This document shows, one piece after another, positions 5,014 to 57,091 of a stretch of DNA of 64,000 nucleotides; the first letter of the stretch is position 1, and each line of letters opens with the position of its first letter. Origin of the DNA: Pelomonas sp. BJYL3 (lineage in GTDB: Bacteria; Pseudomonadota; Gammaproteobacteria; Burkholderiales; Burkholderiaceae_C); contig NZ_JANZKX010000006.1 in assembly GCF_027257975.1 (NCBI RefSeq), positions 186,001 to 250,000 on the forward strand, given 5' to 3'. The position numbers were made by a program, and so were the translations under genes. The notes beneath the pieces were generated by a model that made no database searches, was not told the DNA's origin, and worked only from the letters and a program-made list of their open reading frames with translations.

Positions 5014-6041
5014 GCGCGGGGCTCCGTACCGGCATCCGGCGCCCGCTTCAGCGAGGGGGTCAGGTCTTGCGTCACGTACAGCGGGCGGCGCTTGACCTCG
5101 TCGAAGACCCGGCCCAGGTACTCCGCGATGATGCCCAGGCACAGCAGCTGCACACCGGCAAGAAAGGTGATGGAAGCTGCCAGCGTGGCGAAGCCGGAGA
5201 TCTCGTTGCCGAGGAAGACCTTCTCGAACACGATCCAGAAGCCGAACACCACCGAGATCAGGGACACCATGATGCCCAGGGCGGACACCACCCGCAGCGG
5301 CACCTTGGAAAACGCCGTGATGCCCGTCACCGCCAGCTGGAGCAGGCGCATGAAGTTGAAGCTGGTCTCGCCATGGGCGCGGGCGTCGGGCACGAACTCG
5401 ATGCCCGTCGCGGGGAAGCCCACCCAGGCAAACAGGCCCTTCATGTAGCGCGCCCGCTCGGGCAACTGCCGCAGGGCCAGCACGACGGCGCGGTCCAGCA
5501 GGCGGAAGTCGCCGGCGTCGGCGGGCAGCTCGAAGCGCGAGCCCTTCTGCATCAGCCAGTAGAAGGTGCGGGTGTAGAGGCGCCGTGCGGCCGACTGCGA
5601 CTCGCGCCGTCCCCGTTGCACGCCATAGACCACGTCATAGCCCTCGCGCCAGCGGTCCAGCATCTGGAGTGCGCAGCTGATGGGGTGCTGGCCGTCTGAA
5701 TCCATGCTGATCACCACCTCGCCCTCGACGGCATCCAGGCCGGCCGTCAGCGCCGCCTCCTTGCCGAAATTGCGGGACAGGCGCAGCAGACGCACCGGCA
5801 GGCCCTGGCGGATCAGGCCCTGCACGACCATCACCGTGTCGTCACGACTGCCGTCATCGATGACCATCAGCTCCAGCGCATCGGCATGGGGCGCCAGCTC
5901 CTCGACCAGCTTGGGCAACAGCCACGACAGATTGCGCGCCTCGTTGAAAGCCGGCATCACCACCGACAGCAGCCGCGGCCGGCCGCGGGCCGGCAGCTGC
6001 GCGAGGGAATGAGGCGGGGTGGAGTTCTCAGGGAGCGACAT
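5010..6041 (-). CDS. GT2 polyprenyl-phosphate glycosyltransferase (DPM1/ArnC/GtrB type)
   Basis: Transfers a sugar from a nucleotide donor to a polyprenyl phosphate on the cytoplasmic face. The 343 residues comprise a GT-A catalytic domain (about 25-255) with VVMPAFNEA, VIDDGSRDDT and the acidic MDSDGQHP motif, then two C-terminal transmembrane helices. The ATG at 6041 is chosen because homology starts near SVVMPAFNE and upstream residues are not family-like. Its start overlaps the end of the ArnT-like gene by 14 nt. The C-terminal tail YVTQDLTPSL encodes one copy of the dispersed 19-bp element. In the Francisella pathway the counterpart is FlmF2. Confidence 0.9.
   Translation of the reverse strand: MSLPENSTPPHSLAQLPARGRPRLLSVVMPAFNEARNLSWLLPKLVEELAPHADALELMVIDDGSRDDTVMVVQGLIRQGLPVRLLRLSRNFGKEAALTAGLDAVEGEVVISMDSDGQHPISCALQMLDRWREGYDVVYGVQRGRRESQSAARRLYTRTFYWLMQKGSRFELPADAGDFRLLDRAVVLALRQLPERARYMKGLFAWVGFPATGIEFVPDARAHGETSFNFMRLLQLAVTGITAFSKVPLRVVSALGIMVSLISVVFGFWIVFEKVFLGNEISGFATLAASITFLAGVQLLCLGIIAEYLGRVFDEVKRRPLYVTQDLTPSLKRAPDAGTEPRA
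5056..5074 (+). repeat. Dispersed 19-bp element, copy 1
   Basis: Matches the consensus GGGGTCAGGTCTTGCCTCA with the exact core CAGGTCTTGC at 5061-5070. It lies in the C-terminal tail of the GT2 gene. Confidence 0.7.
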
Positions 6042-7479
6042 AAAGGCACAGATGCTTGTTGCAGGCCAGCGCTTCGCCATGCGGGCGCTGGGTGTCCCGG
6101 TCCAGGACCTGGTAGCGCACGACCGCATGCGCCGGCGGCGCGTAGAGACGGCCCGCACTGTAGAAGAAGGCCGAGTGATCCGGCTTGCTGCCGTACTGGA
6201 GCCCGCAGGCGGCCGTCCAGGCCTGCGCGCCGCAGGCCTTCTCGTAGGCATGGATCAGCTCACGGTCCGAAGCGCGCAGCGACTCCTTGGGGCCGAGCCA
6301 CAGAAAACCCACGGCCGTCAGGAGCAGGACCACGACGCCCGTGCCCCAGTGGCGCGCCGTGCCGAGCTTCGCGGCATCGAACTGGGCGAGCCACAGCAGC
6401 ACCACGCCGGGCAAGGCCGTGACCGCATAGGTGGGGATGATGTTGCGGGCCGCGCTGAACAGCAGCAGCGGTGCGGCCGTGATGCACAGCGCGTAGGCCC
6501 ACAGCTCGCGGCCGAGGCGTTCGGGTGCCGGCGTCGCCCGTGCCCGACGGCCGCCCAGCCAGGCGGCCAGGCCGTGCAGCACCCAGGGCAGGGCCGAGAC
6601 CAGCACGAACAGCCAGATCATGCCGATGGGCTGGGCATGGGCGAAGCCGTAGCGGTCTCCCTTCCAGCCGGGCTGCAGGAATCGCATCACGTGCTCGCCC
6701 AGCAGGAAGTACTGCAGGAAGCCGGGCGTCCGCTGCTCGGCCCAGACATACCAGGGCACGGCCAGGCCCAGCCAGACCAGCCAGGCCCACGGGTCCCTGA
6801 CGATGCGGCCGACAGCGCCCCAGTGCCGGCGCCACAGCGCATGCAGCACCGGCGGCAGCAGGGCCAGCACCCCCGCGGCCGGGCCCTTGGTCAGCAGGGC
6901 CAGGCCCAGGCCGAGGGCCAGCACCCGGCCGGCACGGCGGGCGGAGGCGGCGTCTGGTGCCGTGAGCGAGCGCCACCAGGCGGCCTGCACCAGCAGCACG
7001 GTGGCCATCAGCGTGGCATCCGTCATCACGGCGCCGGCGCAGATGAAATACATGGGGCACAGCATCAGCGCTGCCAGGGCAGCCGCCCGCTGCACCGGCG
7101 CCAGGCTGGGTCGCAGCATCCAGTCCAGGCTCCAGAGGCCCAGCAGCGCCCAGCCCAGCGCCGCCAGCCGGCCCGACCACTCATTGACGCCGAAAAGCTC
7201 CATCAGCAGGGCCTGGCTCCAGGTGGACAGCGGCGGCTTGGCCCAGAAGACTTCGGTGGGCGTCACATGCGGGCTGACCCAGTCGCCCAGCTGCACCATG
7301 AGCCTTGCGATCTCGGCATAGCGAGCCTCGGTATGGTCGGTGAGGGCCATCAGGGGCAGGCTCAGCAGGCGCAGCAGCACGGCTGCCAGCAGCAGGTAGA
7401 GCCAGGGGCGTGCGCTGGCGGCGCTTCGCAGCGGGCTGGCGGAGGGGGTCTGGGCAGCGTTGATCGAGGCGGAACTCAT
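6028..7479 (-). CDS. ArnT-like lipid A glycosyltransferase (PMT/GT83 superfamily)
   Basis: A 483-residue inner-membrane glycosyltransferase with about 12 hydrophobic segments. The first periplasmic loop carries the family DHTEARYAEIAR segment, with the catalytic-type acidic residue, and WAKPPLSTW. ArnT-type enzymes move an amino sugar from undecaprenyl phosphate to lipid A phosphates on the periplasmic side. The ATG at 7479 is chosen over an upstream frame that is Arg/Pro-rich and not membrane-like. It is the first gene of the operon ArnT-like, GT2, GtrA, YdjC deacetylase. The likely counterparts are Francisella FlmK or Bordetella LgmB. The exact sugar is not predictable from sequence. Confidence 0.87.
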   Translation of the reverse strand: MSSASINAAQTPSASPLRSAASARPWLYLLLAAVLLRLLSLPLMALTDHTEARYAEIARLMVQLGDWVSPHVTPTEVFWAKPPLSTWSQALLMELFGVNEWSGRLAALGWALLGLWSLDWMLRPSLAPVQRAAALAALMLCPMYFICAGAVMTDATLMATVLLVQAAWWRSLTAPDAASARRAGRVLALGLGLALLTKGPAAGVLALLPPVLHALWRRHWGAVGRIVRDPWAWLVWLGLAVPWYVWAEQRTPGFLQYFLLGEHVMRFLQPGWKGDRYGFAHAQPIGMIWLFVLVSALPWVLHGLAAWLGGRRARATPAPERLGRELWAYALCITAAPLLLFSAARNIIPTYAVTALPGVVLLWLAQFDAAKLGTARHWGTGVVVLLLTAVGFLWLGPKESLRASDRELIHAYEKACGAQAWTAACGLQYGSKPDHSAFFYSAGRLYAPPAHAVVRYQVLDRDTQRPHGEALACNKHLCLYVAP

Positions 7480-7585
7480 GCAGCGTTGGAGTGGCGTGGC
7501 GTCACGGGGCGGCGTGTGGCGAAGGCGTGGCGCATTCTCGCCGAGCCGGCCGGGTTCGGGCCCCCGTTTGAACCACAATCACGCC

Positions 7586-8218: not shown

Positions 8219-8232
8219 CCACCGCCCGCCCC

Positions 8233-8238
8233 TACAAT
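8233..8238 (+). promoter_or_regulatory. Putative -10 box (TACAAT) for the coiled-coil/zapA pair
   Basis: TACAAT sits in a CCCTACAATGC context, 38 bp before the ATG at 8277. No strong -35 box is visible. Confidence 0.35.
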
Positions 8239-8276
8239 GCCGCATCACCAGTAGGCGAGATTCGTCACAGCCAGCC

Positions 8277-8800: not shown

Positions 8801-8818
8801 ACAAGGCCGGCGAGGCCC

Positions 8819-8824
8819 TAGAAT
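8819..8824 (+). promoter_or_regulatory. -10 box (TAGAAT) for 6S RNA
   Basis: TAGAAT is placed so that transcription would begin about 6-7 nt downstream, at the base of the predicted 6S terminal stem (8831). This agreement between promoter and RNA fold supports both calls. Confidence 0.5.
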
Positions 8825-8829
8825 GGGCT

Positions 8830-18953: not shown

Positions 18954-18972
18954 GCAGGCAAGACCTGACCCC
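18954..18972 (-). repeat. Dispersed 19-bp element, copy 2 (intergenic)
   Basis: The core GCAAGACCTG is at 18958-18967, exact to the consensus on the minus strand. It is the only copy outside a gene, between the Lrp-type regulator and xerD. A 12-bp direct repeat (AGCGGCGTTCAG) precedes it at about 18916-18939. Confidence 0.75.
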
Positions 18973-18998: not shown

Positions 18999-19952
18999 TC
19001 AACCACGCGGATGATGCTGGGCGTGCAGGGCCTTGAGGCGCTCGCGAGCCACGTGGGTGTAGATCTGCGTGGTCGACAGGTCGGCATGCCCCAGCAGCAG
19101 CTGAACCGCGCGCAGGTCGGCACCATGGTTCAGCAGATGGGTGGCAAAGGCATGGCGCAGGGTGTGCGGCGAGATGCTCTGCCGGATCCCGGCCTGCAGC
19201 GCGTACTTCTTGACCAGACGCCAGAACATCTGCCGGCTCAGGGCCTCGCCGTAGCGGTTCAGGAACAGCGCTTCGGGCTGCGCGCCGGCGGCCAGTTGGG
19301 GGCGCGCCTCGTGCAGATAGCGCAGCAGCCAATCGCGCGCCACTTCGCCAAAGGGCAGGAGGCGTTCCTTGCTGCCCTTGCCCATCACCCGCATGGCCGC
19401 TTCCTTGAGACCCACATGCAGCGTCTTCAGTTCCACCAGTTCGCTGACCCGCAGGCCGCTGGCATACATCAGCTCCAGCATGGCGCGATCGCGCAGGCCC
19501 AGGGGCTGGTCCACGTCCGGCGCGTTCAGCAGGGACTCGACCTGCGCCTGCGTGAGGGTCTTGATGCTGCGCTGCAGGCGGTGTGAGGGCAGCAGCTGCA
19601 GGGTCGGGTCTTGCCTCAGCCGCCCTTCGCGAAGGGCCCAGCGAAAGTAGCGCTTGAAGCAGCTCAGACGCCGATTGGCGCTGCTGGGCTTGCTGCCCTC
19701 ATGGCGGGCGCTGATGTAGGCCTGGAGATCGGCCTGGCTGGCCTCGTCCAGGCTGCGCCCCAGTTCGGCATCCAGCCAGTCCGCAAGAAGGGCCAGGTCG
19801 CGGCCATAGGCCTGGCGGGTGGCCGCGGACAGGCCATCCTCCAGCCACAGCGTCTCCAGGAAGAGCTCGGCGGACTGTGCGCTGGTCCGGCGGGCCGCAC
19901 TGGAAGGCACGCCAGGCGGAGCCACGACGGCTGTCTTGCGGGCACGCGGCAC
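18999..19952 (-). CDS. xerD: Tyrosine recombinase XerD
   Basis: Site-specific recombinase resolving chromosome dimers at dif with XerC. The 317 residues contain an N-terminal SAM-like core-binding domain (about 25-110) and a catalytic domain with all expected residues: R168 (ASGLRVSEL), K192 (GKGSKERLLP), H263 and R266 (SPHTLRHAFATH), H289 (LGHADLST), Y298 (IYTH). Spacings match E. coli XerD. It lies 9 bp behind the TctC receptor gene, so it may be read from that gene's promoter. Confidence 0.93.
   Translation of the reverse strand: MPRARKTAVVAPPGVPSSAARRTSAQSAELFLETLWLEDGLSAATRQAYGRDLALLADWLDAELGRSLDEASQADLQAYISARHEGSKPSSANRRLSCFKRYFRWALREGRLRQDPTLQLLPSHRLQRSIKTLTQAQVESLLNAPDVDQPLGLRDRAMLELMYASGLRVSELVELKTLHVGLKEAAMRVMGKGSKERLLPFGEVARDWLLRYLHEARPQLAAGAQPEALFLNRYGEALSRQMFWRLVKKYALQAGIRQSISPHTLRHAFATHLLNHGADLRAVQLLLGHADLSTTQIYTHVARERLKALHAQHHPRG
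19600..19618 (+). repeat. Dispersed 19-bp element, copy 3 (one core mismatch)
   Basis: The core CGGGTCTTGC is at 19605-19614 inside xerD, coding RQDPT on the gene strand. The right flank CTCA matches exactly. Confidence 0.55.
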
Positions 19953-23580: not shown

Positions 23581-24687
<1,107 letters not shown>

Positions 24688-25188: not shown

Positions 25189-26594
25189 GCGTGCCCGCCC
25201 ACCCCTCCTCCCGCCGCTCGGCCCTGCGCCGCATGGGCGGCCTGGCCCTGCTGCTGCAGGCGCCGACGCAGCTGCTGGCGGGGCCAGGTCTTGCCTCCAT
25301 CGTGGCGGTGCGCATCTGGCCGGCCCAGGACTACACCCGCATCACGATCGAGTCTGACCGCCCCCTGGTCGCTCGCCACAGCCTGGTCACCGGGCCGGAC
25401 CGCCTGGTGATCGACGTCGACGACCTGGACCTCAGCCCGGGCCTGCGCGAGCTGCTGGGCAAGGTGCGACCGGACGATCCCTTCATCGAGGGCCTGCGCG
25501 TGGGCCAGAACCAGCCGCGCGTGGTGCGCATCGTGCTGGATCTCAAGCAGGCCGTGGCGCCCCAGGTCTTCACTCTGCAGCCGGTGGCGGCCTACAAGCA
25601 CCGCCTGGTACTGGACCTCTACCCCGTGCAGGAGCGCGACCCGCTGCTGGTGCTGATCCGCGAGAAGGAAGCGGCCGAGCGGGCTGCCGCGCAGTCGGTG
25701 CAGGACGCCCTGGGCGAGCTGATCGCCAAGCTGGACAAGCCCGAATCCACCGCGCCCACGCGCCCCCTGCCGGCCGCCTCGGCGCCCGAGCGCCTCCCCG
25801 CGGCCAGCGCACCGCCTGTCGTGGCCCAGACCCCGGCCCCGGCCCCGCTGCCGCCGCCGTCCATGACCAAGCAGCAGCTGGACCGCCTCATCGTCATCGC
25901 GCTGGACCCCGGCCATGGTGGCGAGGACCCCGGCGCCGTGGGCCCCAGCGGGCTCAAGGAGAAGGACGTGGTGCTGGCCATCGGCCTGAAGCTGCGCGAC
26001 CGGCTGGACAAGCACCCCAACATCCGCGTCATGATGACCCGCGACGCCGACTTCTTCGTGCCCCTGCACGAGCGCGTGCGCAAGGCCCGGCGCGTGCAGG
26101 CTGACCTGTTCGTCTCCCTGCATGCCGACGCTTTCTTCACGCCCCAGGCCCGCGGCGCCAGCGTGTTCGCGCTGAGCGACGGCGCGGCCAGCAGCGCGGC
26201 GGCGCGCTGGATGGCGGACAAGGAAAACGCGGCCGACATGATCGGCGGCGTGAACACCAAGGTCCGTGACGCCTCGGTGCTGCGCACCCTGCTGGACCTC
26301 AGCACCACCGCCCAGATCAAGGACAGCCTCAAGCTCGGCGGTGAGGTCCTGGGCCAGATCAGCCGCGTGGGCAAGCTGCACAAGCCGCGCGTCGAGCAGG
26401 CCGGCTTCGCGGTGCTGAAGGCGCCGGACATCCCCAGCATCCTCGTGGAGACGGCCTTCATCTCCAACCCCGAGGAAGAGGCCAAGCTCAGCAGCGAGGC
26501 CTACCAGGCGCAGCTGGTGGACGCCATCGCCACGGGCATCTCGCGCTACTTCGCGAAGAACCCGCCGCTGGCGCGCAACCGCAACCTGACCTGA
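25185..26594 (+). CDS. amiC: N-acetylmuramoyl-L-alanine amidase AmiC-type (AMIN + Amidase_3)
   Basis: Splits septal peptidoglycan for daughter-cell separation. The 469 residues start with a Tat-like signal (SSRRSALRRMGGLALLLQA), suggesting folded export. An AMIN domain for septal targeting (about 35-150) is followed by a Pro/Ala-rich linker (about 185-225) and the zinc amidase domain, with ALDPGHGGEDPGAVG (His ligand), Glu in GLKEKDVVLAIGLKL, SLHADAF (His ligand) and the catalytic LVETAFISNPEEE. It is coupled to tsaE by overlap. Confidence 0.93.
   Translation: MSVPAHPSSRRSALRRMGGLALLLQAPTQLLAGPGLASIVAVRIWPAQDYTRITIESDRPLVARHSLVTGPDRLVIDVDDLDLSPGLRELLGKVRPDDPFIEGLRVGQNQPRVVRIVLDLKQAVAPQVFTLQPVAAYKHRLVLDLYPVQERDPLLVLIREKEAAERAAAQSVQDALGELIAKLDKPESTAPTRPLPAASAPERLPAASAPPVVAQTPAPAPLPPPSMTKQQLDRLIVIALDPGHGGEDPGAVGPSGLKEKDVVLAIGLKLRDRLDKHPNIRVMMTRDADFFVPLHERVRKARRVQADLFVSLHADAFFTPQARGASVFALSDGAASSAAARWMADKENAADMIGGVNTKVRDASVLRTLLDLSTTAQIKDSLKLGGEVLGQISRVGKLHKPRVEQAGFAVLKAPDIPSILVETAFISNPEEEAKLSSEAYQAQLVDAIATGISRYFAKNPPLARNRNLT
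25280..25298 (+). repeat. Dispersed 19-bp element, copy 5
   Basis: Exact core at 25285-25294, at the end of the amiC signal peptide region. It codes GPGLA in a different frame and uses the rare Leu codon CTT. Confidence 0.65.
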
Positions 26595-26627: not shown

Positions 26628-28805
26628 TCAGGGCTTTTGCAGCGGCATGCCCAGCTGGTCCATCAGGAAGCTGTAGCTGTCGGTGCGCTCGGCGATCACC
26701 TCGCTGGTCGAGGAGCCCATGCCGTGACCGGCGTTGGCGCTGGTGCGCAGCAGGATGGGACGCTCGGCCATGGAAGCGGACTGCGCCGCCTGCAGGCGGG
26801 CCACCATCTTGCGGGACTGCATGGGGTTCACGCGGCCGTCGTGGTCGCCGGTGGTGAAGAGCACGGCCGGGTAGCGCGTGCCGTCCTTGACCTTGTGCAG
26901 GGGCGAATAGCCCAGCAAGGCGCGGAACTGCGCCTCATCCTTGACGGTGCCGAATTCGGTGATGTTGAAGGCGCCGTTGGCGTCCAGCTCCACCCGCAGC
27001 ATGTCGTAGATGCCCACCGAGGCATGCACGGCGCGGAACAGCTCCGGACGCTGGGTGAGCGCCGCGCCCATCAGCAGGCCGCCGTTGCTGCCGCCCTGGA
27101 TGGCCAGGCGCTCGGGCTTGGTGTAGCCGCGGGCGATCAGGTGCTCGGCCGCGCCGATGAAGTCATCGAAGACGTTCTGCTTGCGGGTCAGGTTGCCCGC
27201 CAGGTGCCAGGCCTCGCCGAACTCGCCGCCGCCGCGCAGATTGGCGATCACCATCACGCCGCCGCGCTCCAGCCAGACCTTGCGCAGGGCGTTGAAGCCC
27301 GGCGTCTGGCTGACGCTGTAGCCGCCGTAGCCGTAGAGCAGCACGGGGTGGCTGCCGTCCAGCTTGAGACCCTTGGGACGCAGGATGTTGAGCGGCACGC
27401 GCGTGCCGTCCTTGGAGGTGGCGAACTCGCGCAGCACTTCGACGTCGCTGAAGTCCACATTGGACTTCTGGGCCAGCGCGGTGACGGCCAGGTGCCCGTC
27501 CTTGTGCACGCGGTACCAGGCCTGCGGCTGGGTGTAGCTCTGCACCGAGGCCAGCAGCTCGTTCCTCTCCCCCTTGACCAGCGCATCCACGCTGGCGATG
27601 GCCGGCAGGGGCAGGACCTGGCTCTTGCGGGTCTTGAGGTCGACGCGGCGCAGCTCCGAGGGGCCGCCCAGCAGGTAGCTCAGGTACAGCTGGCCGTCCA
27701 AGAGCTTGAACTGGGTCAGCGTGCCTTCGGACTCGGGCACCAGCACCTCGGCCTTGGCCAGGGGCTGGCCCAGCTTCAGGCGCAAGACCTGACCCTTGGG
27801 CGCGCCCTTGGTGGAGAGGAGGTAGAGCCAGCCATCCGCGGCGGCCTGCAGGCCCTTCACGCCGTCCTGGAAGCCCGAGAGCTGCTGCCAGCGCCCGCCT
27901 TGCGGCTGCAGCCAGAAGGCCTCCTCGCCGCCGTCGCCATTGAGCACCTGGGCAATCTGCAGGCCCTTGGGTCCGCTGGCCAGGAAGGTCTCGGCAATGC
28001 GCGGCAGGCCCTCACCCAGCACCATGCGGTCCTTGGACAGGGGCTCGCCCAGGCGGTGGCTCCAGACCTGCTGGAAGAACATGGCGTCGCCCTCGGCGCG
28101 CTCGCCGGGGGCCGGGTAGCGGGTGTAGAGCAGGCCCTTGCCGTCGGCCTGCCAGCTGACGGAGCCGCCGCCGGTGGGGAACTGCACGCGCGGGATCACC
28201 ACATCGACCGGCTTGCCGCTGGCCACGTCATAGAGGTGCAGGCTGCCGCGCTCGCTGCCCTTCTCGCTCAGCGAGACGGCGATGCGCTTGCCGTCCGGCG
28301 AGGGCATGAACCAGTCGATGGCCAGGCTGCCGTCGGCGGCCAGCTGGACGGGGTCCAGCACCACGCGCTCGGTCTCGGGCTTGTCGGGGCTGTCCATCAC
28401 CACGATGCGCGGCTGCTGGCGGCCGGGCTCGTACTTCATCGCGAACCAGTGCTTGCCGTAGTGCCCCAGGCTGCCGTAGCCGGTCGGGCGGGTCATGACC
28501 AGCTCCTTGATCCGCGCAGCCAGGGCCTCGCGACCCGGGATGGCATCCAGGCGGGCGCGGGTCAGCGCGTTCTGGGCGGCGACCCACTGCTTCACCTCGG
28601 GACTCTCGAAGTCCTCCAGCCAGCGGTAGTCCTCGCTGACGGTCGTGCCATGGAACTGGTCCTGCACCGGGCGCTGCTGCGTCGCCGGATAGGCGGGATC
28701 AGCGGCCCGTGCGCCGCCCGCGGCGGCCAGGGACAGGGTGGACAGGGCGATCAGCTGCACCAGGCGGCGGCGCGGCGTGGACAGAGTGCTCGAAGTTGTG
28801 CGCAT
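26628..28805 (-). CDS. Exported prolyl oligopeptidase (S9A family)
   Basis: Serine peptidase cutting short peptides after proline. The 725 residues begin with a signal peptide (to about residue 40, ending GGARA). A seven-bladed propeller region and the C-terminal alpha/beta-hydrolase domain follow. The nucleophile lies in IQGGSNGGLLMGA, the Asp in TGDHDGRVNP and the His in SANAGHGMGSS. FHGTTVSEDYRWLEDFESPEV is the usual mature start. It is transcribed in the same direction as the tricorn protease gene, 178 bp downstream of it, consistent with joint peptide breakdown in the periplasm. The ATG at 28805 begins the signal peptide. Confidence 0.92.
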   Translation of the reverse strand: MRTTSSTLSTPRRRLVQLIALSTLSLAAAGGARAADPAYPATQQRPVQDQFHGTTVSEDYRWLEDFESPEVKQWVAAQNALTRARLDAIPGREALAARIKELVMTRPTGYGSLGHYGKHWFAMKYEPGRQQPRIVVMDSPDKPETERVVLDPVQLAADGSLAIDWFMPSPDGKRIAVSLSEKGSERGSLHLYDVASGKPVDVVIPRVQFPTGGGSVSWQADGKGLLYTRYPAPGERAEGDAMFFQQVWSHRLGEPLSKDRMVLGEGLPRIAETFLASGPKGLQIAQVLNGDGGEEAFWLQPQGGRWQQLSGFQDGVKGLQAAADGWLYLLSTKGAPKGQVLRLKLGQPLAKAEVLVPESEGTLTQFKLLDGQLYLSYLLGGPSELRRVDLKTRKSQVLPLPAIASVDALVKGERNELLASVQSYTQPQAWYRVHKDGHLAVTALAQKSNVDFSDVEVLREFATSKDGTRVPLNILRPKGLKLDGSHPVLLYGYGGYSVSQTPGFNALRKVWLERGGVMVIANLRGGGEFGEAWHLAGNLTRKQNVFDDFIGAAEHLIARGYTKPERLAIQGGSNGGLLMGAALTQRPELFRAVHASVGIYDMLRVELDANGAFNITEFGTVKDEAQFRALLGYSPLHKVKDGTRYPAVLFTTGDHDGRVNPMQSRKMVARLQAAQSASMAERPILLRTSANAGHGMGSSTSEVIAERTDSYSFLMDQLGMPLQKP
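27778..27796 (-). repeat. Dispersed 19-bp element, copy 6
   Basis: Exact core GCAAGACCTG at 27782-27791 in the prolyl oligopeptidase gene, read as GQVLR there, with the rare codon TTG. Confidence 0.65.
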
Positions 28806-28983: not shown

Positions 28984-31900
28984 TCACTTGCCCAGCTCGG
29001 TGGGCAGGGCCGGCGCCTTCTTGAGGTCCACCGGCTTGTAGCTGGCCAGGCGCTTCATGACCTCGGCAATGCCGGCGTCCAGCTGGCTGTCCTGCCCGCG
29101 GTTGACGCCGATGGGATCGAGGTCGACGTCCATGTCCGGCACCGTCCCTTCGTTCTCGATGCGCCATTCGCCGTCCGGCGTGAAGAAGCGGAAGAAGGGC
29201 ACGGTCAGGAAGCCGTTGTCGATCAGCGGCGGATTGGCAGAGATGCCGATCAGCCCGCCCCAGGTGCGGGTGCCGATCAGCGGGCCCAGGCCCAGGCGGC
29301 GGAAGGCCCAGGGGAGGTAGTCGCCGCCGGAGCCGGCGTCCTGGTCGATCAGCATGACCTTGGGGCCGTAGACGGCGCTGCCCGGGGTGTTGAAGACCAT
29401 GGCGTCGCGGTCCTTCCAGCCGGAAAGGTAGGGCCTCTTGAGCACGTCCAGGATGTAGTTGGCCGCATGGCCGCCGCCATTGCGGCGGTCGTCGATGATC
29501 AGCGCCTCCTTGTCCGACTGGGCAAAGAACTGGCGGTTGAAGTACTCGAAGCCGTTGCGGCCCGTGTCCGGCAGGTAGATGTAGCCCACCTTGCCGCCGG
29601 TCTTGCTGGCCACGTAGGCGCGGTTGGACTCGATCCAGTCCCACTGCCGCAGCGCCGCGTCACGGCCCACGGGCTCCACCACCACCTGGCGGCTCTTCTC
29701 GCCGCGCGGGTTGTCGGCCAGGGTCAGCGTGGTCTGCTTGCCGGCGGTGTTCTCGAAGGCGCGGAAGAAGTTCTGGGCGGCCGTCACCGGCTGGCCATTG
29801 ACGGCCAGCACGTAGTCACCCGTCTTGACATTGAGCCCCGGCATGGCCAGGGGCGCCTTCAGGAAGGGATTCCAGCGGTCGCCCGCATAGACCTTGCTCA
29901 GGCGCCAGCGGCCCTCATGCGGCTCGACATCCGCGCCCAGCAGGCCCACGCTGACGGGAGCGTCGGACTGGGTGTCGCCGCCGCCCACGTTGTTGTGGGC
30001 CACCTGCAGCTCGCCGATCATGTCGGAGAGGATCTCGTTGAGGTCCTCGCGGCGCTGCACGTGGGCCAGCAGGGGCTGGTAGCGCTTGTAGACGGCGTCC
30101 CAGTCCAGGCCATGCAGATTGGGCGCGTAGAAGTACTCCTTCTCCATCCACCAGACCTCGTTGAAGATCTGCTGCCATTCTTCGCGCGGCTGGATGCGGG
30201 CGCGCAGGCCGCTCTGGTCCAGGGCCTTGGGATCGGGCTTGTCGCCGGTGTCAGCCACCTCGAGCTTGCCCTTGGGCAGCTCCAGCAGCAGCTTCTTGCC
30301 GTCGGCGCTCAGGCTGGCACCGCTCAGACCGGTCTTGATGGACTTGGGCTTGCGCTCCTCCATGTCGAAGCGGAACAGCTCGGCATGTCCGCTGGACTCT
30401 GCGTCCGGTCCCTCGTTGGTGACGCCCTGCTGGCGGCGGTCCAGGTAGTAGAGGCTGCCATCGGCGGCCACCATGAGGCCGGCATAGAAGCGCTCCGGCA
30501 CCGGCAGCGGCACGAAGCGCTGCTGCAGGCCGGCGATGTCGATGCGGGTGGGTTTGGCGCTCGGCTTGGCCTTGTCCTCGGCCTTGGCATCCGGCTTTGC
30601 ATCGGCCTTGGGGTCAGGTTTTGCCTCACCCTTGCCATCGCCCTTGCCCTCAGTCTTGCCCTCGGTCTTGCCTTCAGCCCTGGGGCCCTCCTCCTCGGCG
30701 GTCTTTGGCCACAGCGGCGAGCGGCCTTCGCTGGACAGCACGGCCGCGTAGAGGCCCAGGCGAAGGGGCTGGTCTTCCACGCTCATGTCCAGGCCGACCT
30801 GGCGCGGGCCGGCGTTCACCGAGGCCGCGAAGTACAGCAGGTCGCCCTTGGGGGAGAAGGCCGGCCACACGGCATGGGCCAGGCCGTCGCTGAGCATGTG
30901 CTCCTGGCCGGTCTGGAAATCATGCAGGTGGATCTGGCTGAGCTGGTTGGCGCCGACGATGGTGTAGGCCAGCCAGCGGCTGTCAGGCGAGAAGCTGACC
31001 TCGAACTGGCTGCGGCGCGGGGTCTTGGCGACGGGCTTGAGCGCCTTGGCCTCGGTCTCGTAGACGTAGAGCTGCAGATGGTTGTCCTGCAGGGCGATGC
31101 GCTTGCCGTCCGGTGACCAGTCCAGCAGGGTGAAGTAGCCGGCCGGCAGGGCATGGACCTCGCGCTTGCCACCGGCCGTGGGCTCGGCCAGCACCAGTTC
31201 GTGCTTGAAGCCGCCATCGCGCAGCCAGGCCAACTGCTTGCCGTCGGGGCGCCACAGGGCGTCCTTCTCGCGCACGCCGGAGGTGCCGGTGAGGTTCTGC
31301 GTCACGCCGTCCTTGACCGGCACGCTGAAGACTTCGCCCCGGGCCGTCACCAGCACGCGCTTGCCCGTGGGCGAGAGCTGCGCGCCCTGCATCTGGCGGC
31401 TGACATCCTTCCACTGCTCGCGCGTCTGGGCGCCAGCCACCGGCAGGGTGATGCGCAGGGTCAGGTCTTGCCCCGTCTTCAGGTCCAGCTGGTGCAGGCT
31501 GCCGCCCAACTCGTAGACCACGGTGCTGCCGTGCAGGCCGGCGCTGCGGACGTCCCAGCTCTTGCTGCGGGTGAGCTGGCGCAGCTGCTGGGTCCTGCCG
31601 TTCCAGCTGTAGAGATTGGCCGCGTCGTCATTGCGGTCCGAGACGAAGACCAGCTCGTCGCCGTGCCACATCGGCGTGTGGTCCGTCGCCCGCACATGGG
31701 GCACCTTCTCCAGCTGCTGGGTCTTGACGTTGAGCACCCAGATTGGCGGCGTGGCACCGCCGCGGCTCTGGCGCCAGCCAGCCGCGCCCTCGTGGGCCTT
31801 GCGGTTGGGGCGGTAGGCCAGGCGTTCGCCGTCGGCGTTCCAGGCGCCCTCGAAGGCCACGGCCTTCATCAGCTTGCGCTCCGGGCCGCCCTCCACGGGC

Positions 31901-35151: not shown

Positions 35152-36879
35152 ATGGCCACCCTGACCCTGAAGAAGAAGCCCGCCGGTGACAGCACCAAGA
35201 CGGGCAAGCCCGGCGAGCGCCGCCAGCCCCTGCGCGGCACCGGCGTCTCCCGCACCCGCCCCACCCTCGCCCAGGCTCAGACCGAGCGCGCCGAGCGCCA
35301 GGCCGCCTACGAGGGCCGCCGCGCGTCGGAACCCCAGGATCAACGCCATGACGGCGGCCGTGGCCCGGCCCGGCCGGACCGTCCGGGCAAGCCCGGTGGC
35401 AAGCCTGGTTTCGGCGCCAAGCCCGGTGGCAAGTTCGGCAGCAAGCCCTTCCGCAGCGAAGGCCCGGCCGGCGGCCGTGACCGTGCTGACCGTGGCGATC
35501 GCCCCGGCGGCTGGTCGCGCGGCGGCGACGACGAACGCCGTTTCGAAGGCCGTGGTGAGCATCGGGGCGGCCATCGCTTCGAAGGCCGCAATGAGGGTCG
35601 CTTTGAAGGCCGGGGCGAGGGCCGGGGTGAGTTCCGCGGCGAATTCCGTGGTGAAGGCCGCGGCCCTGGTCGCCCCGATTTCCAAGGCGGAGATCGCGGC
35701 CCGGGCCGGGGCGATCACCGGGGAGACCTCCGTGAAGGTTTCCGCGGCGAGGGCCGCGGCGACTTCCGTGGTGGCCCCCGCGGACCGGCGCGTGGCGAAG
35801 CGCGCGGTGGCTACGGCCCGGGTCGTCCCGACGATCGCCGGGCGCATGGCTCAGCGCATGAGCCAGCCCGAGGTCATGGCGGTCATGGCGGCCGTGATGA
35901 ACGCGGCCCGCGTCGTCAGGCCGAGCAGGATTCGTCCTGGGGTCAGCAACGTCCCGCCCGCCGGCATGAGCCGCAAGGCCACGGTCCCGAGCACCGGGGC
36001 CCGGACCGCGGCCGTGACACCGCCGCCCGCCCCGACCAGCGCCGCCAGACCGCCCTGCGCTCGCATCCCGAGCAAGCACCTCGCGTGCCTCAGCCCGCGC
36101 CCGAACGCCGGAACAGCGCCGAGGGCGAGCGCCTCTCCAAGCGCATGAGCGAGCTGGGCCTGGCCTCGCGCCGCGAGGCCGATGAATGGATCGCCGCCGG
36201 CTGGGTCAAGGTGGACGGACACCTGGCCACCCTGGGTGAGCGCGTGGGCCCCGACGCCCGCATCGAGGTCGATCCCGCCGCCCGGCAGCAGCAGGCCCAG
36301 CGCGTCACCATCCTGCTGCACAAGCCCATCGGCTATGTGTCCGGCCAGGCCGAGGACGGCTACGAGCCCGCCTCCGTGCTGATCAAGAGCGACACCCACT
36401 GGAAGGACGACCCGGCCGGCATCAAGTACCACGTGGGCCACAGCCGCTTCCTGGCGCCTGCGGGCCGCCTGGACATCGACTCCACCGGCCTGCTGGTGCT
36501 GACCCAGGACGGCCGCATCGCCAAGCAGCTGATCGGCGATGACTCCTCGATCGAGAAGGAGTACCTGGTGCGGGTGGAATACGTCGGCATCAACGGCGTG
36601 AAGAACGAGTCCGGCCAGCTGGACGAGCAAGGCCTGGCCCTGCTCAACCATGGCCTGATGCTGGACGACGTCGAGCTCAAGCCGGCCAAGGTCAGCTGGG
36701 CCAACGAGGACCAGCTGCGCTTCGTGCTGCGCGAGGGCCGCAAGCGCCAGATCCGCCGCATGTGCGAGCTGGTGGGCCTCAAGGTGACGGCGCTCAAGCG
36801 CGTGCGCATCGGCCGCATCCCGCTGGGCCACCTGCCCGCCGGCCAGTGGCGCTTCCTGGCGCCCTGGGAAAAGTTCTGA
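35152..36879 (+). CDS. RluF/RluB-type rRNA pseudouridine synthase with giant Gly/Arg-rich N-terminus
   Basis: 575 residues, of which only the last ~245 are enzyme. An S4 RNA-binding domain ([20 protein letters not shown], about 331-385) is followed by the RsuA/RluF catalytic domain with the catalytic Asp in [19 protein letters not shown], and the conserved [14 protein letters not shown]. RluF modifies 23S rRNA near position 2604 in E. coli. The first ~325 residues are low complexity. At about 128-232 there are repeated [12 protein letters not shown] and GRGDFRGG units, resembling RGG boxes that bind RNA. The ATG at 35152 matches the family start (MATLTLKKK). Confidence 0.88.
35533..35800 (+). 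repeat. In-frame imperfect repeats coding F(E/R)G(R/E)-type units
   Basis: Imperfect 12-18 bp repeats (GAAGGCCG, GGTGAGTTCCGCGGCGAATT types) code tandem FEGRGE and FRGEGR peptides in the N-terminal part of the pseudouridine synthase. They are prone to slippage and length change. Confidence 0.7.
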
Positions 36880-51841: not shown

Positions 51842-51860
51842 GCATGCAAGACCTGACCCT
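51842..51860 (-). repeat. Dispersed 19-bp element, copy 9 (covers the folA start codon)
   Basis: Exact core GCAAGACCTG at 51846-51855. The G of the core is the third base of the folA ATG, and the element codes the N-terminus MQDLTL. Confidence 0.65.
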
Positions 51861-52350
51861 CATCGCCGGCCTGTGCCGGGATCGCGGCATCGGCCTTGGC
51901 AACGAGCTGCTGGTGCGCCTGCCCGAGGACATGGCCCACTTCAAGGCGCTCACCCTGGGCCACACGGTGCTGATGGGGCGCAAGACCTGGGATTCCATCC
52001 CCGCGAAGTTCCGCCCCCTGCCCGGCCGCCGCAACCTGGTGCTGAGCCGCCAGGCGGGCCTGCAACTGCCCGGCGCCGAGGTCTTCACCGACATCACCGC
52101 GGCCCTGGCCGCCTGCGGCCCCGCAGAGCGGGTCTTCGTGATGGGCGGCGCCGAGATCTACGCCCTGGCCCTGCCCATGGCCACGGCCCTGGAACTGACG
52201 GAGTTCGACCTGCAGCGCCCGGCCGACGCCTTCTTCCCGGCCTGGGATGCCACGCAGTTCCGCATGAGCCGCCGCGAGGCGCACACGCACCGCGCCGGCG
52301 AGCCAGAAGGTTTTTCTTACAGCTTCGTGCGCTACGAACGCGTAGGCTGA
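51844..52350 (+). CDS. folA: Dihydrofolate reductase
   Basis: Reduces dihydrofolate to tetrahydrofolate with NADPH. The 168 residues contain the substrate loop IAGLCRDRGIGLGNELLVRLPEDM with the catalytic acidic residue (E/D in the LPEDM region), VLMGRKTWDSIP, RRNLVLSRQ and FVMGGAEIYALAL. It lies 14 bp after thyA, so co-transcribed. The start codon is embedded in a copy of the dispersed 19-bp element. Confidence 0.95.
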   Translation: MQDLTLIAGLCRDRGIGLGNELLVRLPEDMAHFKALTLGHTVLMGRKTWDSIPAKFRPLPGRRNLVLSRQAGLQLPGAEVFTDITAALAACGPAERVFVMGGAEIYALALPMATALELTEFDLQRPADAFFPAWDATQFRMSRREAHTHRAGEPEGFSYSFVRYERVG

Positions 52351-52996: not shown

Positions 52997-53009
52997 CCGG
53001 GCGGCGGCC

Positions 53010-54698
53010 TCAGGCCGTCGGTTCCAGCCTGAAGGCCCGCACCGCCTCGATCAGGGCCTGGGCCTGCTGGCTCAGGCTTTCCGCCGCAGCGGCACTCTCC
53101 TCCACCAGGGCGGCGTTCTGCTGCGTGACCTGGTCCAGCTGACCCACCGCACTGCTGATCTGCTGGATGCCCGTGGTCTGCTCATTGTTGGCGGTGCTGA
53201 TTTCGCTGATCAGATCCGTCACGCGACGCACCTGGCTGACGATGTCCGCCATGGTGCTGCCCGCCTCGTTCACCAGCTGACTGCCGGCCTCGACCTTGCC
53301 CACGCTGTCGTGGATCAGGCCCTTGATCTCGCGGGCCGCCTCGGCGCTGCGCTGGGCCAGGCTGCGCACCTCGCTGGCCACCACGGCAAAGCCACGGCCC
53401 TGCTCGCCAGCCCGCGCGGCTTCCACAGCGGCATTCAGGGCCAGGATGTTGGTCTGGAAGGCAATGCCGTCGATGACGCCGATGATGTCGACGATCTTGC
53501 GTGAGGCCCCGTTGATCTCCTCCATGGTCGAGACCACGCGGCTGACCACCTCGCCGCCGCGCTCGGCGACCGCGCTGGCCGAGCCCGCCAGCTGCGTGGC
53601 CTGGCGGGCGGTGTCGGCATTGCTGCGCACGGTGTCGGACAGCGTCTCCATCGAAGCCGCCGTCTGCTGCAGGTTGCTGGACTGCTGCTCGGTCCGCTGA
53701 GACAGGTCGGCATTGCCCGTGGCGATCTGGGCTGAGCCGGTGACGATGCTGTCGCTGCTGGCGCGCACGACGCCCACCACATCACGCAGGGCATGCTGCA
53801 TCCGGGACACGGAAGCCAGCAGGCTGTGAGATGAAACGTCCTGCAGCTCGACCGGGCTGGTGAGGTCACCTGAGGCGACCCGCTCCACGATGCTGCGCAC
53901 CTGGGCAGGCTCTGCACCCAGCTGCGAAAGAATGGCGCGGTAGCCCCACCACAGCAGGGCGGCCACGGCCAGCACCAGCAGGACGGCCAACAACACCGAG
54001 ACATTGGCCCAGGTGCTGCGCTGCTCGCTGGCCTGCGCCACAGCCAGGGCGGTGCGCTGGTCCAGCAGCTGGAGGAACTCGTCCACCGGTCGCATGATCT
54101 TGGCCTTGAACCGGTGGTAGTCCAGGTCATGCATCATGGCGCGGGCCCGCTCCAGGTCTGGCTCGCCCTGCTTGGTGAAGCCGCCCTTGCCATCGTCATA
54201 GAGTCCCTTGACGAGGTTCATGGCGATGGTCTCGGTGCGCACCAGGTCGTTGGAGTTCTGCTGGGCTTCCCGCAACTTGGCGAATTCGGCCTCGGTGAAG
54301 CCGGCCTTCTTCATCAAGTCCTGCAGCGGCACTGAGGCGCCGCTGCCCTTGCTGGGTGTTTCATCGGCAGCGCGAAAGTCCCAGTAGATGCCCTGGTAGT
54401 TCGCCGGCCTGGGAAGTTTTCCGTTGCGGACATCCAGCACCTCGAAGTACTGCTTCTCCCACTTGGAATCGGCACTGATCACATAGGTGCGGGCGAGGCG
54501 GGTGAGGTCGTCCGAGCTTTGCCGCAGCTCGTCGGCGAGGAGGTAGGAGTCATAGCGTGCCTGGGTGGCCCGCTCCACGCTCTCTGCCGCGCGCCGCATC
54601 GCCAGCGTCGAACACAGGAGCAGAACCGAGATGCCGAACACCGCAGCGAACAGCGTGCCGAAGATGCCGCGAACCGAACTTGCCTTGCCTTGTTGCAT
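53010..54698 (-). CDS. Methyl-accepting chemotaxis protein
   Basis: A 562-residue chemoreceptor. TM1 (about 12-34), a mostly helical periplasmic sensor (about 35-225) and TM2 (about 228-250) are followed by HAMP-like and methylation helices and the signalling tip [33 protein letters not shown]. No C-terminal NWxxF CheR-binding pentapeptide (it ends RAFRLEPTA). The ligand is unknown. The ATG at 54698 has GGAGAGA 4-10 nt upstream, better than the in-frame ATG at 54710. Confidence 0.92.
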
Positions 54699-55068
54699 GG
54701 TTCTCTCCATGAGATGGCTGGAGCAGGCACGCAGGATGTACGCTGCTCACGTTGCCGGGCAGAGATGCACCATCACGACGGTCAGGCACCAGCCTCGCCG
54801 TGCGGATGGAGAAGTGGATGTGGAAGTGGAAGTGGAAGTGGAATGCGGGCGTCTAAGGCCCGAAAGCACAGTTCTGCATGAATCGCTCCCTTGCGCGGGC
54901 CAGCCTCTTGGCTTGTTATCCCGCTGATTGCAGCCATCGGCGCGCGCCTAGCATCCCTTGAGGGTGTCGCGCGACCCAACGTGGTGCAACCTTACGCAGG
55001 GCGGTTGGGCAACGCAATCTCAGTTCTGGCCGACAATGGCTCACCCCCCCGTCATTTGCCTCGAAGTC
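54699..55068. other. 370-bp divergent intergenic region
   Basis: Between the chemoreceptor and xth genes. It holds a hexanucleotide repeat (54814-54843) and a GACAAT -10-like box (55032-55037) 31 bp before the xth ATG. No small gene or RNA was recognised in the rest. Confidence 0.45.
54814..54843 (+). repeat. Hexanucleotide tandem repeat (GTGGAA)n
   Basis: Five units: one GTGGAT followed by four GTGGAA. It lies about 115-145 bp upstream of the chemoreceptor start, in a non-coding stretch, and could vary in length by slippage. Confidence 0.85.
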
Positions 55069-55833
55069 ATGAAATTTGCCACGTGGAACGTCAACTCCCT
55101 TGCCGTGCGCTTGCCACAGCTCCTGGACTGGCTGGCGGCCAATCCGGTCGATGCCCTGGTGCTGCAGGAGACCAAGCTCACGGATGACAAGTTCCCCACG
55201 CTGGAGATCGGCGCGGCGGGCTACCAAGTGCAGTGGTTCGGCCAGAAGACCTACAACGGCGTGGCCCTGCTGAGCCGCAAGCCGGCCACGGACGTGGTCA
55301 AGAACATCCTCGGCTTTGCGGACGAACAGGCGCGCGTGATCGCCGGCACGGTGGACGGCGTACGAGTCATCGGCGCCTATTTCCCCAACGGCCAGGCGCC
55401 GGACAGCGAGAAGTTCGTCTACAAGATGGGCTGGCTGGAGGCCTTGCGCGAGTGGGTCCGGGCCGAGCTGAAGACGCACGAGCGCCTGGTGCTGATGGGC
55501 GACTTCAACATCGCCCCCGAGGACCGCGACGTTTACGACCCCGTGGCTTGGGCGGGCCAGATCCACTGCACGCCGCAGGAACGCGAGCACTTCCAGGCGC
55601 TCCTGGGCCTGGGCCTGGTCGACGCCTTCCGGATGTTCGAGCAGCCGCCCAAGAGCTGGAGCTGGTGGGACTACCGCAACCTGGCTTTCCGCAAGAACCA
55701 GGGCCTGCGCATCGACCACATCCTGGTCAGCGAGGCCTTGCGCCCGCGCGTGAAGGCCTGCGAGATCGACAAGCAGCCGCGGCGCAACGAGCGGCCCAGC
55801 GACCATGCGCCTGTCATCGTCACCCTGGATTGA
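55069..55833 (+). CDS. xth: Exodeoxyribonuclease III
   Basis: AP endonuclease and 3-prime repair exonuclease of base excision repair. The 254 residues contain FATWNVNSLAVRLPQLLDWL, the metal-binding Glu in LVLQETKL, LMGDFNIAPEDRDVYDP, DYRNLAFRKNQGLRIDHILV and the C-terminal NERPSDHAPVIVTL. The ATG at 55069 is the usual family start (MKFATWNVNS). Second base-excision gene in the window besides nth. Confidence 0.94.
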   Translation: MKFATWNVNSLAVRLPQLLDWLAANPVDALVLQETKLTDDKFPTLEIGAAGYQVQWFGQKTYNGVALLSRKPATDVVKNILGFADEQARVIAGTVDGVRVIGAYFPNGQAPDSEKFVYKMGWLEALREWVRAELKTHERLVLMGDFNIAPEDRDVYDPVAWAGQIHCTPQEREHFQALLGLGLVDAFRMFEQPPKSWSWWDYRNLAFRKNQGLRIDHILVSEALRPRVKACEIDKQPRRNERPSDHAPVIVTLD

Positions 55834-55850
55834 AGCCCTCAGGAGATCCC

Positions 55851-56408
55851 ATGAGCCGAGCCGACCCTGCCACGCATGCCGACGCCCAGCTCCAGCGCTG
55901 GTGCGACGAGGAAGCCCGGGTCCGTCAGCGCATGCAGCCCGAGCCCGGGCTGGCGCGCCTGGACCAGCTGGCCGGCCTGGACGGCCTGGCCCAGATGCAG
56001 GCCATGCTCGACGGCGAGCTGCCACCCCCGCCCATCGCACTGACGCTGGACTTCCTGCTGATCGAGGTGGCCAAGGGCAAGGCCGTTTTCCAGGGCAAGC
56101 CGCAGTTCCGTCATTACAACCCCCTGGGCACCGTGCACGGCGGCTGGTTCGCCACGCTGCTGGACTCCGCCCTGGGCTGCGCGGTGCACACCACGCTGGA
56201 GCCGGGCAGCGGCTACACCACGCTGGAGTTCAAGGTCAATCTGGTGCGCGCCTTGACGGACAAGGTGCCCCTGGTCCGCGCCATCGGCGAGGTGACGCAC
56301 CGCGGCCGGCAGGTGGCCACCTCGGAGGCCCGCCTGCTGGGGCATGACGGCAAGCTCTACGCCCACGCCAGCACCACCTGCCTGATCTTCGAGCAGCGGC
56401 AGGGCTGA
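55851..56408 (+). CDS. PaaI-type hotdog-fold acyl-CoA thioesterase
   Basis: A 185-residue protein. The first ~60 residues are helical; the hotdog domain follows with NPLGTVHGGWFATLLDSALG (the HGG and Asp typical of active PaaI-type enzymes), TTLEFKVNLVRAL and GRQVATSEARLLGHDGKLYA. It probably hydrolyses an aryl- or acyl-CoA. AGGAGA 5-10 nt upstream fixes the ATG at 55851, 17 bp after xth. Confidence 0.88.
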   Translation: MSRADPATHADAQLQRWCDEEARVRQRMQPEPGLARLDQLAGLDGLAQMQAMLDGELPPPPIALTLDFLLIEVAKGKAVFQGKPQFRHYNPLGTVHGGWFATLLDSALGCAVHTTLEPGSGYTTLEFKVNLVRALTDKVPLVRAIGEVTHRGRQVATSEARLLGHDGKLYAHASTTCLIFEQRQG

Positions 56409-56415
56409 GGGGCAG

Positions 56416-56465
56416 GCGCCCGCGGGCGCCCTGAGCCGCCCTGAGTCGCCCTGAGCCACCCTCAG
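56416..56465. repeat. 16-bp GC palindrome and CCCTGAG repeats between convergent genes
   Basis: GGCGCCCGCGGGCGCC (56416-56431) is a perfect palindrome. It is followed by three to four CCCTGAG(C/T)CG-like units up to the eda stop. It may form a bidirectional structure ending transcription of the thioesterase and eda genes, but has no T-run. Confidence 0.5.
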
Positions 56466-57091
56466 GCGCGCAAGGCGTGCGTCGCGCGGGCCAGCTGGGT
56501 GATGCGGCCCCAGTCTCCGGCATCCATGGCGTCCTGCGGCGTGAGCCAGGAGCCGCCGCAGACCTTCACATTGGGCAGGGACAGGAACTGTGGGGCGGAC
56601 TCCTGCGTGATGCCGCCCGTCGGGCAGAAGGCCACGTCCGGGAAGGGCCCGGCCAGGGCCTTGAGCAGGTTGACGCCGCCCACGGCCACCGCCGGGAAGA
56701 GCTTCAGGAAGGTGTAGCCCGCGGCATTGGCCTGCATGACCTCGCTGGCGGTGGAGACACCCGGCAGCAGGGCCAGGTCTTGCCCCTGGGCCGCCACGGC
56801 GATCTCGGAGTTGAAACCCGGGCTGACGCCGAAGCGGCAGCCGGCGTTCTTGGCCGCCGCCACATCCGCTGCGGTGCGCAGGGTGCCCGCCCCCACGATG
56901 GCCTCGGGCACGGCACGGGCCATGGCTTCCATGGCCTGCAGCGCCACCGGCGTGCGCAGCGTCACCTCCAGCACCCGCACGCCTCCGGCCACCAGGGCCT
57001 CGGCCAGGGGCACCGCATGCTCCAGCTTCTGGATCACGATGACGGGGATCACGGGGCCGTGGCTGGCCAGGCTCAGGGTCTGATTGCTCAT
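56462..57091 (-). CDS. eda: 2-keto-3-deoxy-6-phosphogluconate (KDPG) aldolase
   Basis: Splits KDPG into pyruvate and glyceraldehyde-3-phosphate in the Entner-Doudoroff pathway. The 209 residues contain the catalytic Glu region [11 protein letters not shown]-type [32 protein letters not shown], the Schiff-base Lys in YTFLKLFPA and PTGGI. It lies 41 bp behind edd, co-transcribed. The ATG at 57091 gives the usual start; 57115 is an alternative. Confidence 0.95.
56769..56787 (+). repeat. Dispersed 19-bp element, copy 10
   Basis: Exact core at 56774-56783 in eda, read as GQDLAL on the gene strand. Confidence 0.65.

Follow-up and report, generated by a model that had tools for sequence, protein, structure and literature searches.

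A dispersed 13–15-bp DNA motif of Pelomonas matches the terminal inverted repeat of TIRYT transposases and is a predicted recognition site of a catalytically altered TIRYT

Results

A short motif recurs inside and between genes of the window

The window analysed here, a stretch of 64,000 nucleotides from Pelomonas sp. BJYL3 (NCBI RefSeq assembly GCF_027257975.1, contig NZ_JANZKX010000006.1, positions 186,001 to 250,000), contains a dispersed motif, spelled out as a single sequence GGGGTCAGGTCTTGCC, that lies in several genes and between two convergent ones (Table 1). TIRYTs are a group of Y1 transposases, and the motif has the letters of the terminal inverted repeat (TIR) of their intact members. 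It is probably a recognition site of a TIRYT relative encoded elsewhere in this genome. The genus is represented by three genomes, that of the window (G000) and those of the congeners G226 and G298.

All ten copies listed in a first-pass annotation are present at the places it gave. Nine lie inside genes according to our own gene caller, the remaining one (18959) being intergenic, and the reading frames are as described there: six copies encode QD(L/P)(T/A), one GPGLA, one GQVLR, and one KPDPK. The repeat of the 10-mer CAGGTCTTGC is real, with nine exact copies in the window and not the eight that had been counted; the left flank of the ninth, at 51980 (-), is unrelated to the others, and this copy falls outside the motif family. 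At up to one mismatch the window holds 25 matches to this 10-mer vs. 6.96 ± 2.81 after shuffling, and none of 100 shuffles reached 25. The one-mismatch copy at 30611 may be a chance match. A few pairs of sites are spaced 16–23 bp apart.

Table 1 Motif copies in the window and their state in the congeners G226 and G298
Position	Strand	Sequence	Context	Reading	State in congeners
5057..5069	+	GGGTCAGGTCTTG	glycosyltransferase gene, antisense	QDLT	identical in G298; G226 unaligned
18959..18971	-	GGGTCAGGTCTTG	intergenic, convergent genes either side		identical in G298 despite flank indels; G226 unaligned
19601..19613	+	GGGTCGGGTCTTG (one mismatch)	tyrosine recombinase (Phage_integrase) gene		identical in G298; G226 unaligned
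23688..23700	+	GGGCCAGGTCTTG	QueG-like gene	QDLA	identical in G226 and G298; also kept in G206 (another genus)
25281..25293	+	GGGCCAGGTCTTG	AMIN/Amidase_3 gene	GPGLA	identical in G226 and G298
27783..27795	-	GGGTCAGGTCTTG	prolyl oligopeptidase gene	GQVLR	identical in G226 and G298
30611..30623	+	GGGTCAGGTTTTG (one mismatch)	tricorn-like protease gene		absent from G226 and G298
31458..31470	+	GGGTCAGGTCTTG	same tricorn-like protease gene as 30611	QDLT	identical in G226 and G298
36628..36640	-	GGGCCAGGCCTTG (weak, one mismatch; missing from the earlier list)			in G226, absent from G298
51847..51859	-	GGGTCAGGTCTTG	start of DHFR gene	QDLT	identical in G226 and G298
56770..56782	+	GGGCCAGGTCTTG	KDPG aldolase gene	QDLA	kept in G226; three substitutions, no indel in G298

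The 19-bp length first proposed for the element is unsupported, its terminal CTCA being without conservation, and the conserved unit comprises 13–15 bp, R-GGGYCAGGTCTTG-M. Around the 31 exact GGTCAGGTCTTG sites in a 464-kb sample (400 kb of contig C1 in addition to the window), information is high solely from R(-2)G(-1) to C/A(+12) and weak at +13, with conservation ending two bases before and one to two bases after GGTCAGGTCTTG. The near-invariant letters are GGG.CAGGTCTTG, where the fourth base is T or C, and single-mismatch variants are most frequent at this T/C position and at the last base.

The motif is abundant and constrained as DNA

Genome-wide, the 5.24-Mb genome holds 451 copies of GGGYCAGGTCTTGM and 222 of GGGGTCAGGTCTTG, and the reversed pattern gave zero copies in both cases. 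Among 12-mers seen at least eight times in the 464 kb, GGGTCAGGTCTT ranks first (32 vs. 0.14 expected); among 11-mers, a rarer word, ACAAAACGGGA (6 vs. 0.01), outscores the motif. This word and CTGAGCCCTGAG (13 vs. 0.16) are further over-represented words in the window and L003–L022.

Coding copies were evaluated in a 764-kb sample, 88.5% of which is covered by genes called with our own script. It contains 67 perfect copies, 42 of them wholly inside called genes and 25 outside; some of the latter overlap a stop or start codon, and 19 of the 25 are nearest a gene 3′ end. Among the gene copies 29 are antisense, 26 of these in a single frame (QDLT or QDLA), and 13 are sense. The expectation for coding copies is 0.15 from codon usage, and synonymous codon shuffling within genes yields a mean of 1.39 and a maximum of 5 in 100 runs, so that the observed 42 lie far above both the codon-matched and the shuffled controls, of the kind that the first-pass annotation had called for, and support its suggestion that selection, if not copying, acts on DNA and not on protein. 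This DNA-level constraint shapes protein sequences, as the motif encodes 20 of the 21 QDLT tetrapeptides in the sample, along with 6 of 21 QDLA and 10 of 21 GQVL. A family of sites under DNA-level constraint is established directly.

The frame shared by 26 of the 29 antisense copies would fit a motif that merely results from codon usage or a conserved peptide, an explanation already refuted by the comparison with both controls. Furthermore, 25 of the 67 perfect copies are not wholly genic though genes cover most of the sample, ten more genomes reached through relatives of the prolyl oligopeptidase (at most 52% identity) have 0–6 copies, and 44 genomes of the family have 0–5. The probability left for a by-product is practically nil.

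Mapping orientation along the chromosome, another check put forward earlier, revealed no polarity in 3 Mb of a closed genome, G206 (one contig, 5.32 Mb, 318 copies). Of the sites in its first 3 Mb, 97 are forward and 95 reverse, forming 99 strand runs vs. 97 expected, and a replichore-polarised motif of the KOPS or Chi type was rejected on this strand balance. Gaps between the G206 sites are near random (coefficient of variation 1.09 vs. 0.99 for random placement, with 9% of simulations as high).

Eleven genomes of the family carry the motif in numbers

Copies of GGGYCAGGTCTTGM were counted in 58 genomes, 55 of the family and three from outside it, which were chosen and not drawn at random: they comprise all 16 matching genomes of one scan and some of its non-matching ones, plus the third congener, with a small number taken from an order-wide draw. 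Eleven family genomes, the carriers, hold 21–451 copies: G000 451, G226 368, G206 318, G298 284, G275 272, G212 172, G273 131, G234 99, G260 96, G232 40, and G265 21. The other 44 include G240 (5) and G274 (4), both with intact TIRYTs, G243 (5), which has TIRYT fragments, and G228 (3). The three genomes outside the family have 62, 74, and 48 copies. In 200 genomes drawn from the order, GGGGTCAGGTCTTG occurs in 44, with few copies in most.

Sites are conserved within the genus

The window aligns with G298 in long syntenic blocks, mostly 83–89% identical, and with G226 over about 23.6–60.8 kb only, at about 90% identity, the G226 contig ending there. Twenty perfect sites were found in 264 kb, of which 18 align with G298 and 17 are still sites there, so the proposed comparison of presence and absence in close relatives speaks for conservation. 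Fourteen of the aligned sites are letter-identical, whereas windows matched for gene and codon phase, or taken from intergenic DNA close by, would give 3.4; in three more the sole difference is T/C at the degenerate base, and the last has three substitutions with no indel. All 18 are ungapped within the unit, their changes being substitutions. Starting from G298, 18 sites align with G000, where 17 persist as sites and one is opposite an alignment gap. Identity is 0.974 in the motif core and 0.823 in the flanks, and 50 of 54 directional gene pairs within the genus are kept vs. 12.2 expected. The variant GTGCCAGGTCTTG, which makes up 7 of the 56 occurrences of CAGGTCTTG in 464 kb, is identical in G298 in both aligned cases.

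The motif is the terminal inverted repeat of intact TIRYTs

The window's genome encodes two Y1_Tnp genes, both outside the window. The tie to a Y1 transposase of the RAYT type (REP-associated tyrosine transposase, where REP denotes repetitive extragenic palindromic sequence) that had been suggested for the motif stands, with the gene lying elsewhere; the accompanying idea of a REP-like sequence moved by that enzyme finds no support. The L001-type gene has relatives of about 26–39% identity in nearly all genomes searched, and the only motif copy within the surrounding 3.3 kb sits about 0.6 kb downstream of it. The L002-type gene (291 amino acids, C1:1024663-1025535) is found full-length at 51% identity or more in 14 of the 55 family genomes.

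Looking for RAYT genes flanked by the motif, a further earlier suggestion, was productive: in four of 15 stretches (G182, G188, G071, and G016) the 14-mer adjoins Y1 genes with an intact HUH motif and the start MARPLR. Four of the 15 show inverted pairs or clusters of the 14-mer (G012 twice, G104, and G140), and the remaining stretches have no intact gene within them. In the accessible sections of PMC3733652 and PMC6006769, the L002 type falls under TIRYTs, equivalent to RAYT group 1 and TnpA_REP subclass 2.1, which have a C-terminal helix-turn-helix (HTH) and the TIR consensus GGGGWSAS. The identity of the motif with the TIR of intact TIRYTs is observed directly.

The protein has the two domains of a TIRYT, matching Y1_Tnp (PF01797) with 27 bits (cut-off 23) and, at the C-terminus, HTH_3 with an E value of 7e-4, which is under the cut-off of that model; NF047646 (REP_Tyr_transpos) scores 51.6 bits, short of the 80 set as its cut-off. 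Every TIRYT in the alignment of Di Nocera 2013 has HUH and the catalytic tyrosine (Tyr), as far as the accessible text of PMC3733652 goes. An altered TIRYT orthologue occurs in all 11 carriers, and none of them retains the full set of these residues, the second histidine (His) being lost in 11 of 11 and the first in six. Intact TIRYTs read RGDRRE (RGDGRE in G016), NHYH, and RYVxxNP. The HUH region of the carriers reads DSYE (G000, G226, and G298), DGYE (G206), DAYQ (G275), DHYD (G232), DHYQ (G273 and G234), DQYE (G212), EHYQ (G260), or THYE (G265); RRE and LNP are lost in all 11, and the catalytic Tyr is replaced by His in G298, G206, and G265. The G228 orthologue keeps HYH and LNP and is without RRE. 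Because variants of other HUH enzymes with glutamine in place of His can remain active, lost chemistry is firm only for the six genomes with neither histidine (G000, G226, G298, G206, G275, and G212).

Mean pairwise identity of the HTH is 0.75 among the 11 altered proteins vs. 0.36 among eight intact ones, compared with 0.61 vs. 0.72 for the HUH part, 0.56 vs. 0.76 for the Tyr-LNP part, and 0.62 vs. 0.50 for the whole protein, the intact set being more diverse. Constraint in the carriers has thus shifted from the catalytic parts to the HTH, and a dN/dS of 0.09–0.15 for the orthologues within the genus indicates that the altered gene is kept under purifying selection. A search of the PDB with the altered protein alone returned no transposase, just weak ribosomal matches. 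A profile of five intact N-termini matches the E. coli TnpA_REP structure 4ER8 (E 0.0011), with the HYH and Tyr of intact TIRYTs opposite HMH and Tyr. For the HTH part, a profile of six intact relatives gave weak matches (E 0.0003–0.07) to a designed repeat, sigma factors, and the Lac repressor headpiece, which suggests binding to duplex DNA.

The carriers and G228 form one clade (support 100/99), with G260 as the first branch. Genes neighbouring the G000 orthologue are also found beside it in G226 and G298 and partly in G206, G275, G232, G273, G212, G234, and G265, that is, in nine of the ten other carriers, with none seen for G260; the G228 orthologue shares upstream neighbours with G000. 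A TIRYT gene at a shared place, with catalytic motifs lost and the HTH conserved in the carrier clade, is a direct observation. G298 has both an altered and an intact relative, the second TIRYT (L245, C12 at about 690–692 kb) having HYH, Tyr, and RRE and lying amid TIR-like copies. A fragment at C1:919777-919983 of G000 resembles the TIRYT C-terminus and is a relic with two in-frame stops.

A TIR-like copy precedes most altered TIRYT genes

Eight of the 11 carriers have a copy with at most one mismatch upstream of the start of the TIRYT orthologue; it is located at -44 to -46 in G206, G275, G273, G212, and G260 and at -55 in the three Pelomonas genomes, which have an extra 10 bp. This promoter copy, usually one base off the consensus, is GGGGTCAGGCCTTGCC in G000, G226, G298, G206, G275, and G273, GGGGTCAGATCTTGCC in G212, and CGGGCCAGGTCTTGTC in G260; an off-consensus base common across genera resembles a weak operator, and may be one. 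A further copy, inverted and with one mismatch, is present in G000, G226, G298, and G212 between -98 and -123. In the intact genes of G071, G016, and G182 a perfect TIR is located at -45 or -46, and in other intact TIRYTs it is at about -79 (G188) or at -701 and -845 (G240). CTAAGTT ahead of the ATG is common to G071 and five carriers (G000, G226, G206, G275, and G273). TIRs on both sides of the gene are not the rule, an inverted one-mismatch copy directly after the stop codon being present only in G260, as would be expected of a remnant of a two-ended element; no copy was found in the 4 kb downstream of the G000 gene.

These arrangements bear on the possibility that the dispersed copies are REP or TIR units inserted by a RAYT or TIRYT and now neutral relics. 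Clusters of the 14-mer in other families (G012, G104, and G140), copies around intact TIRYTs, including the second one of G298, and the single G298 site opposite a gap in G000 would all fit such an origin. The dispersed copies, however, are bare 13–15-mers with dissimilar flanks and, by inspection, no conserved hairpin-capable flank, the 18 sites aligned with G298 have no gap inside the unit and are conserved well above matched windows, and the catalytic residues of the candidate enzyme are lost. Relic insertion is largely contradicted for the copies aligned and is altogether very improbable. REP insertion was rejected for the dispersed copies on the lack of flank conservation, the ungapped alignments, and the substitutions in congeners.

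Discussion

Of the three candidates raised by the first-pass annotation, a dispersed protein-binding site fits best. We consider it probable that the motif is a half-TIR recognition site of a domesticated, catalytically inactive TIRYT, predicted to bind genome-wide and to control its own gene. We give about even chances to the broader proposal that a Y1 transposase without its chemistry stayed as an autoregulated host DNA-binding protein and recruited hundreds of half-TIR sites, with DNA-level selection dictating protein sequence. The HTH would bind the site in duplex form, and the promoter copy would act as a weak operator for autoregulation. The protein itself would be a chromosome-wide DNA-binding protein of a nucleoid type or a regulatory one. 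Under this reading, an immobilised TIRYT would have lost its downstream TIR and nuclease residues and kept its HTH, promoter TIR, and location, and a 13–15 bp half of the ancestral TIR would have become a host binding site. Sites would then be gained and lost by point mutation in permissive gene parts and near gene ends and, once present, kept by selection within the genus.

Several observations count against binding by the altered TIRYT, and three of them weigh most: the case of G228, the existence of one origin only, and site turnover from genus to genus. G228, inside the carrier clade, has a TIRYT orthologue with only 3 copies of the motif and without a promoter copy. The protein and the sites have one phylogenetic origin, and the 11 of 11 carriers are not 11 independent events. 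In G234, G232, and G265 the promoter versions are more altered, none being within one mismatch; among nine intact TIRYTs, just three have it at -45 or -46, and no TIR lies within 150 bp of those of G104, G012, and G274 or of the second G298 copy. The first His is kept in five carriers (G232, G273, G234, G260, and G265) and the Tyr in 8 of 11. Between genera, where pairs are directional and not independent, a first pass over six other carrier genera found 2 of 26 pairs kept vs. 2.3 expected and a wider pass 16 of 175 vs. 15.1 expected by identity. Ungapped pairs with a local identity of at least 0.5 account for all that persisted (16 of 85 vs. 8.0 expected), none of the other 90 being kept (7.1 expected), nor any of five pairs with G228. 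The sites sit in variable protein parts, with a local identity of 0.56 vs. 66% for the gene. With such positions and so little persistence between genera, the site set is largely genus-specific, gained per lineage and then kept.

Genus-specific position sets would also fit a drive of the kind proposed for DNA-uptake sequences (DUS) and uptake signal sequences (USS), in which competent cells favour DNA with the motif and transformation makes it accumulate. The word is strongly over-represented in both orientations and in permissive gene regions, and its reverse complement contains CCTG, with the CTG core that the accessible part of PMC3630211 gives as common to all DUS dialects. The density is lower, at one copy per 12–21 kb in the five richest genomes vs. 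about 1900 in 2.2–2.3 Mb in Neisseria, by the same part of that source. Matches to the minor-pilin family PF16732 (ComP_DUS) occur in 58 of 58 genomes, whether they have the motif or not, and do not discriminate between the two; this Pfam model is named for the Neisseria uptake receptor, and the name alone says little. An uptake role gives no reason for the identity of the word with the TIR of TIRYTs or for its position in a TIRYT promoter. Among the matches listed, literature on uptake sequences in Burkholderiales or Betaproteobacteria offered nothing relevant, and literature matching the motif letters was unrelated work only. An uptake function, also raised at first pass, is less likely than a protein-binding site and, on its own, unlikely.

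The sites could instead belong to another host protein, one for chromosome organisation, segregation, or regulation, with the TIRYT a bystander of shared descent. Their conservation, lack of polarity, and spread agree with this, as does G228, which has the orthologue without the sites. Such a protein would need the 13–14 bp specificity of the TIR a second time, and it would not account for the TIR-like promoter copy of 8 of 11 carriers or for the HTH having become the constrained part. We regard a second protein as a rather poor prospect.

Compared with known systems, the altered TIRYT resembles TIRYTs (RAYT group 1) in protein homology with a C-terminal HTH, in the TIR-like copy upstream of the gene, and in the fit of the motif GGGGTCAG to the consensus GGGGWSAS, insofar as the accessible sources describe the group. 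It differs in that the TIRYTs of Di Nocera keep HUH and Tyr (accessible text of PMC3733652) whereas the carriers are without the second His, RRE, and LNP, and have half-TIRs dispersed inside genes, G260 alone having an inverted copy that adjoins the gene downstream. REP/REPIN-RAYT systems, such as that of E. coli TnpA_REP (4ER8), likewise pair a Y1 homologue encoded on the chromosome with numerous short, related sequences, and the profile of intact relatives matches 4ER8 over the HUH and Tyr parts; here, however, no hairpin flank is conserved by inspection, copies are mostly genic (42 of 67), and change comes by substitution, not insertion. DUS of Neisseriaceae and USS of Pasteurellaceae are also many conserved short words, genic and intergenic and lineage-specific, but the present motif is sparser and appears tied to a transposase relative, not to a pilin receptor.

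The long retention of RAYT-like genes by bacteria calls for an explanation. The lineage described here keeps such a gene under purifying selection despite the lost catalytic residues, together with hundreds of single recognition sites. Should binding be confirmed, a bacterial transposase would here have turned into a chromosome-wide DNA-binding protein. No catalytically dead RAYT is named in the titles or abstract openings of the literature among the matches listed.

A search for another dialect of the motif in 137 kb of G228, with a CRISPR-like array masked, yielded no dispersed word that stood out. That array (C19:240001-260000, L246) contains 39 copies of TTCCGGCCAGAG inside a longer repeat.

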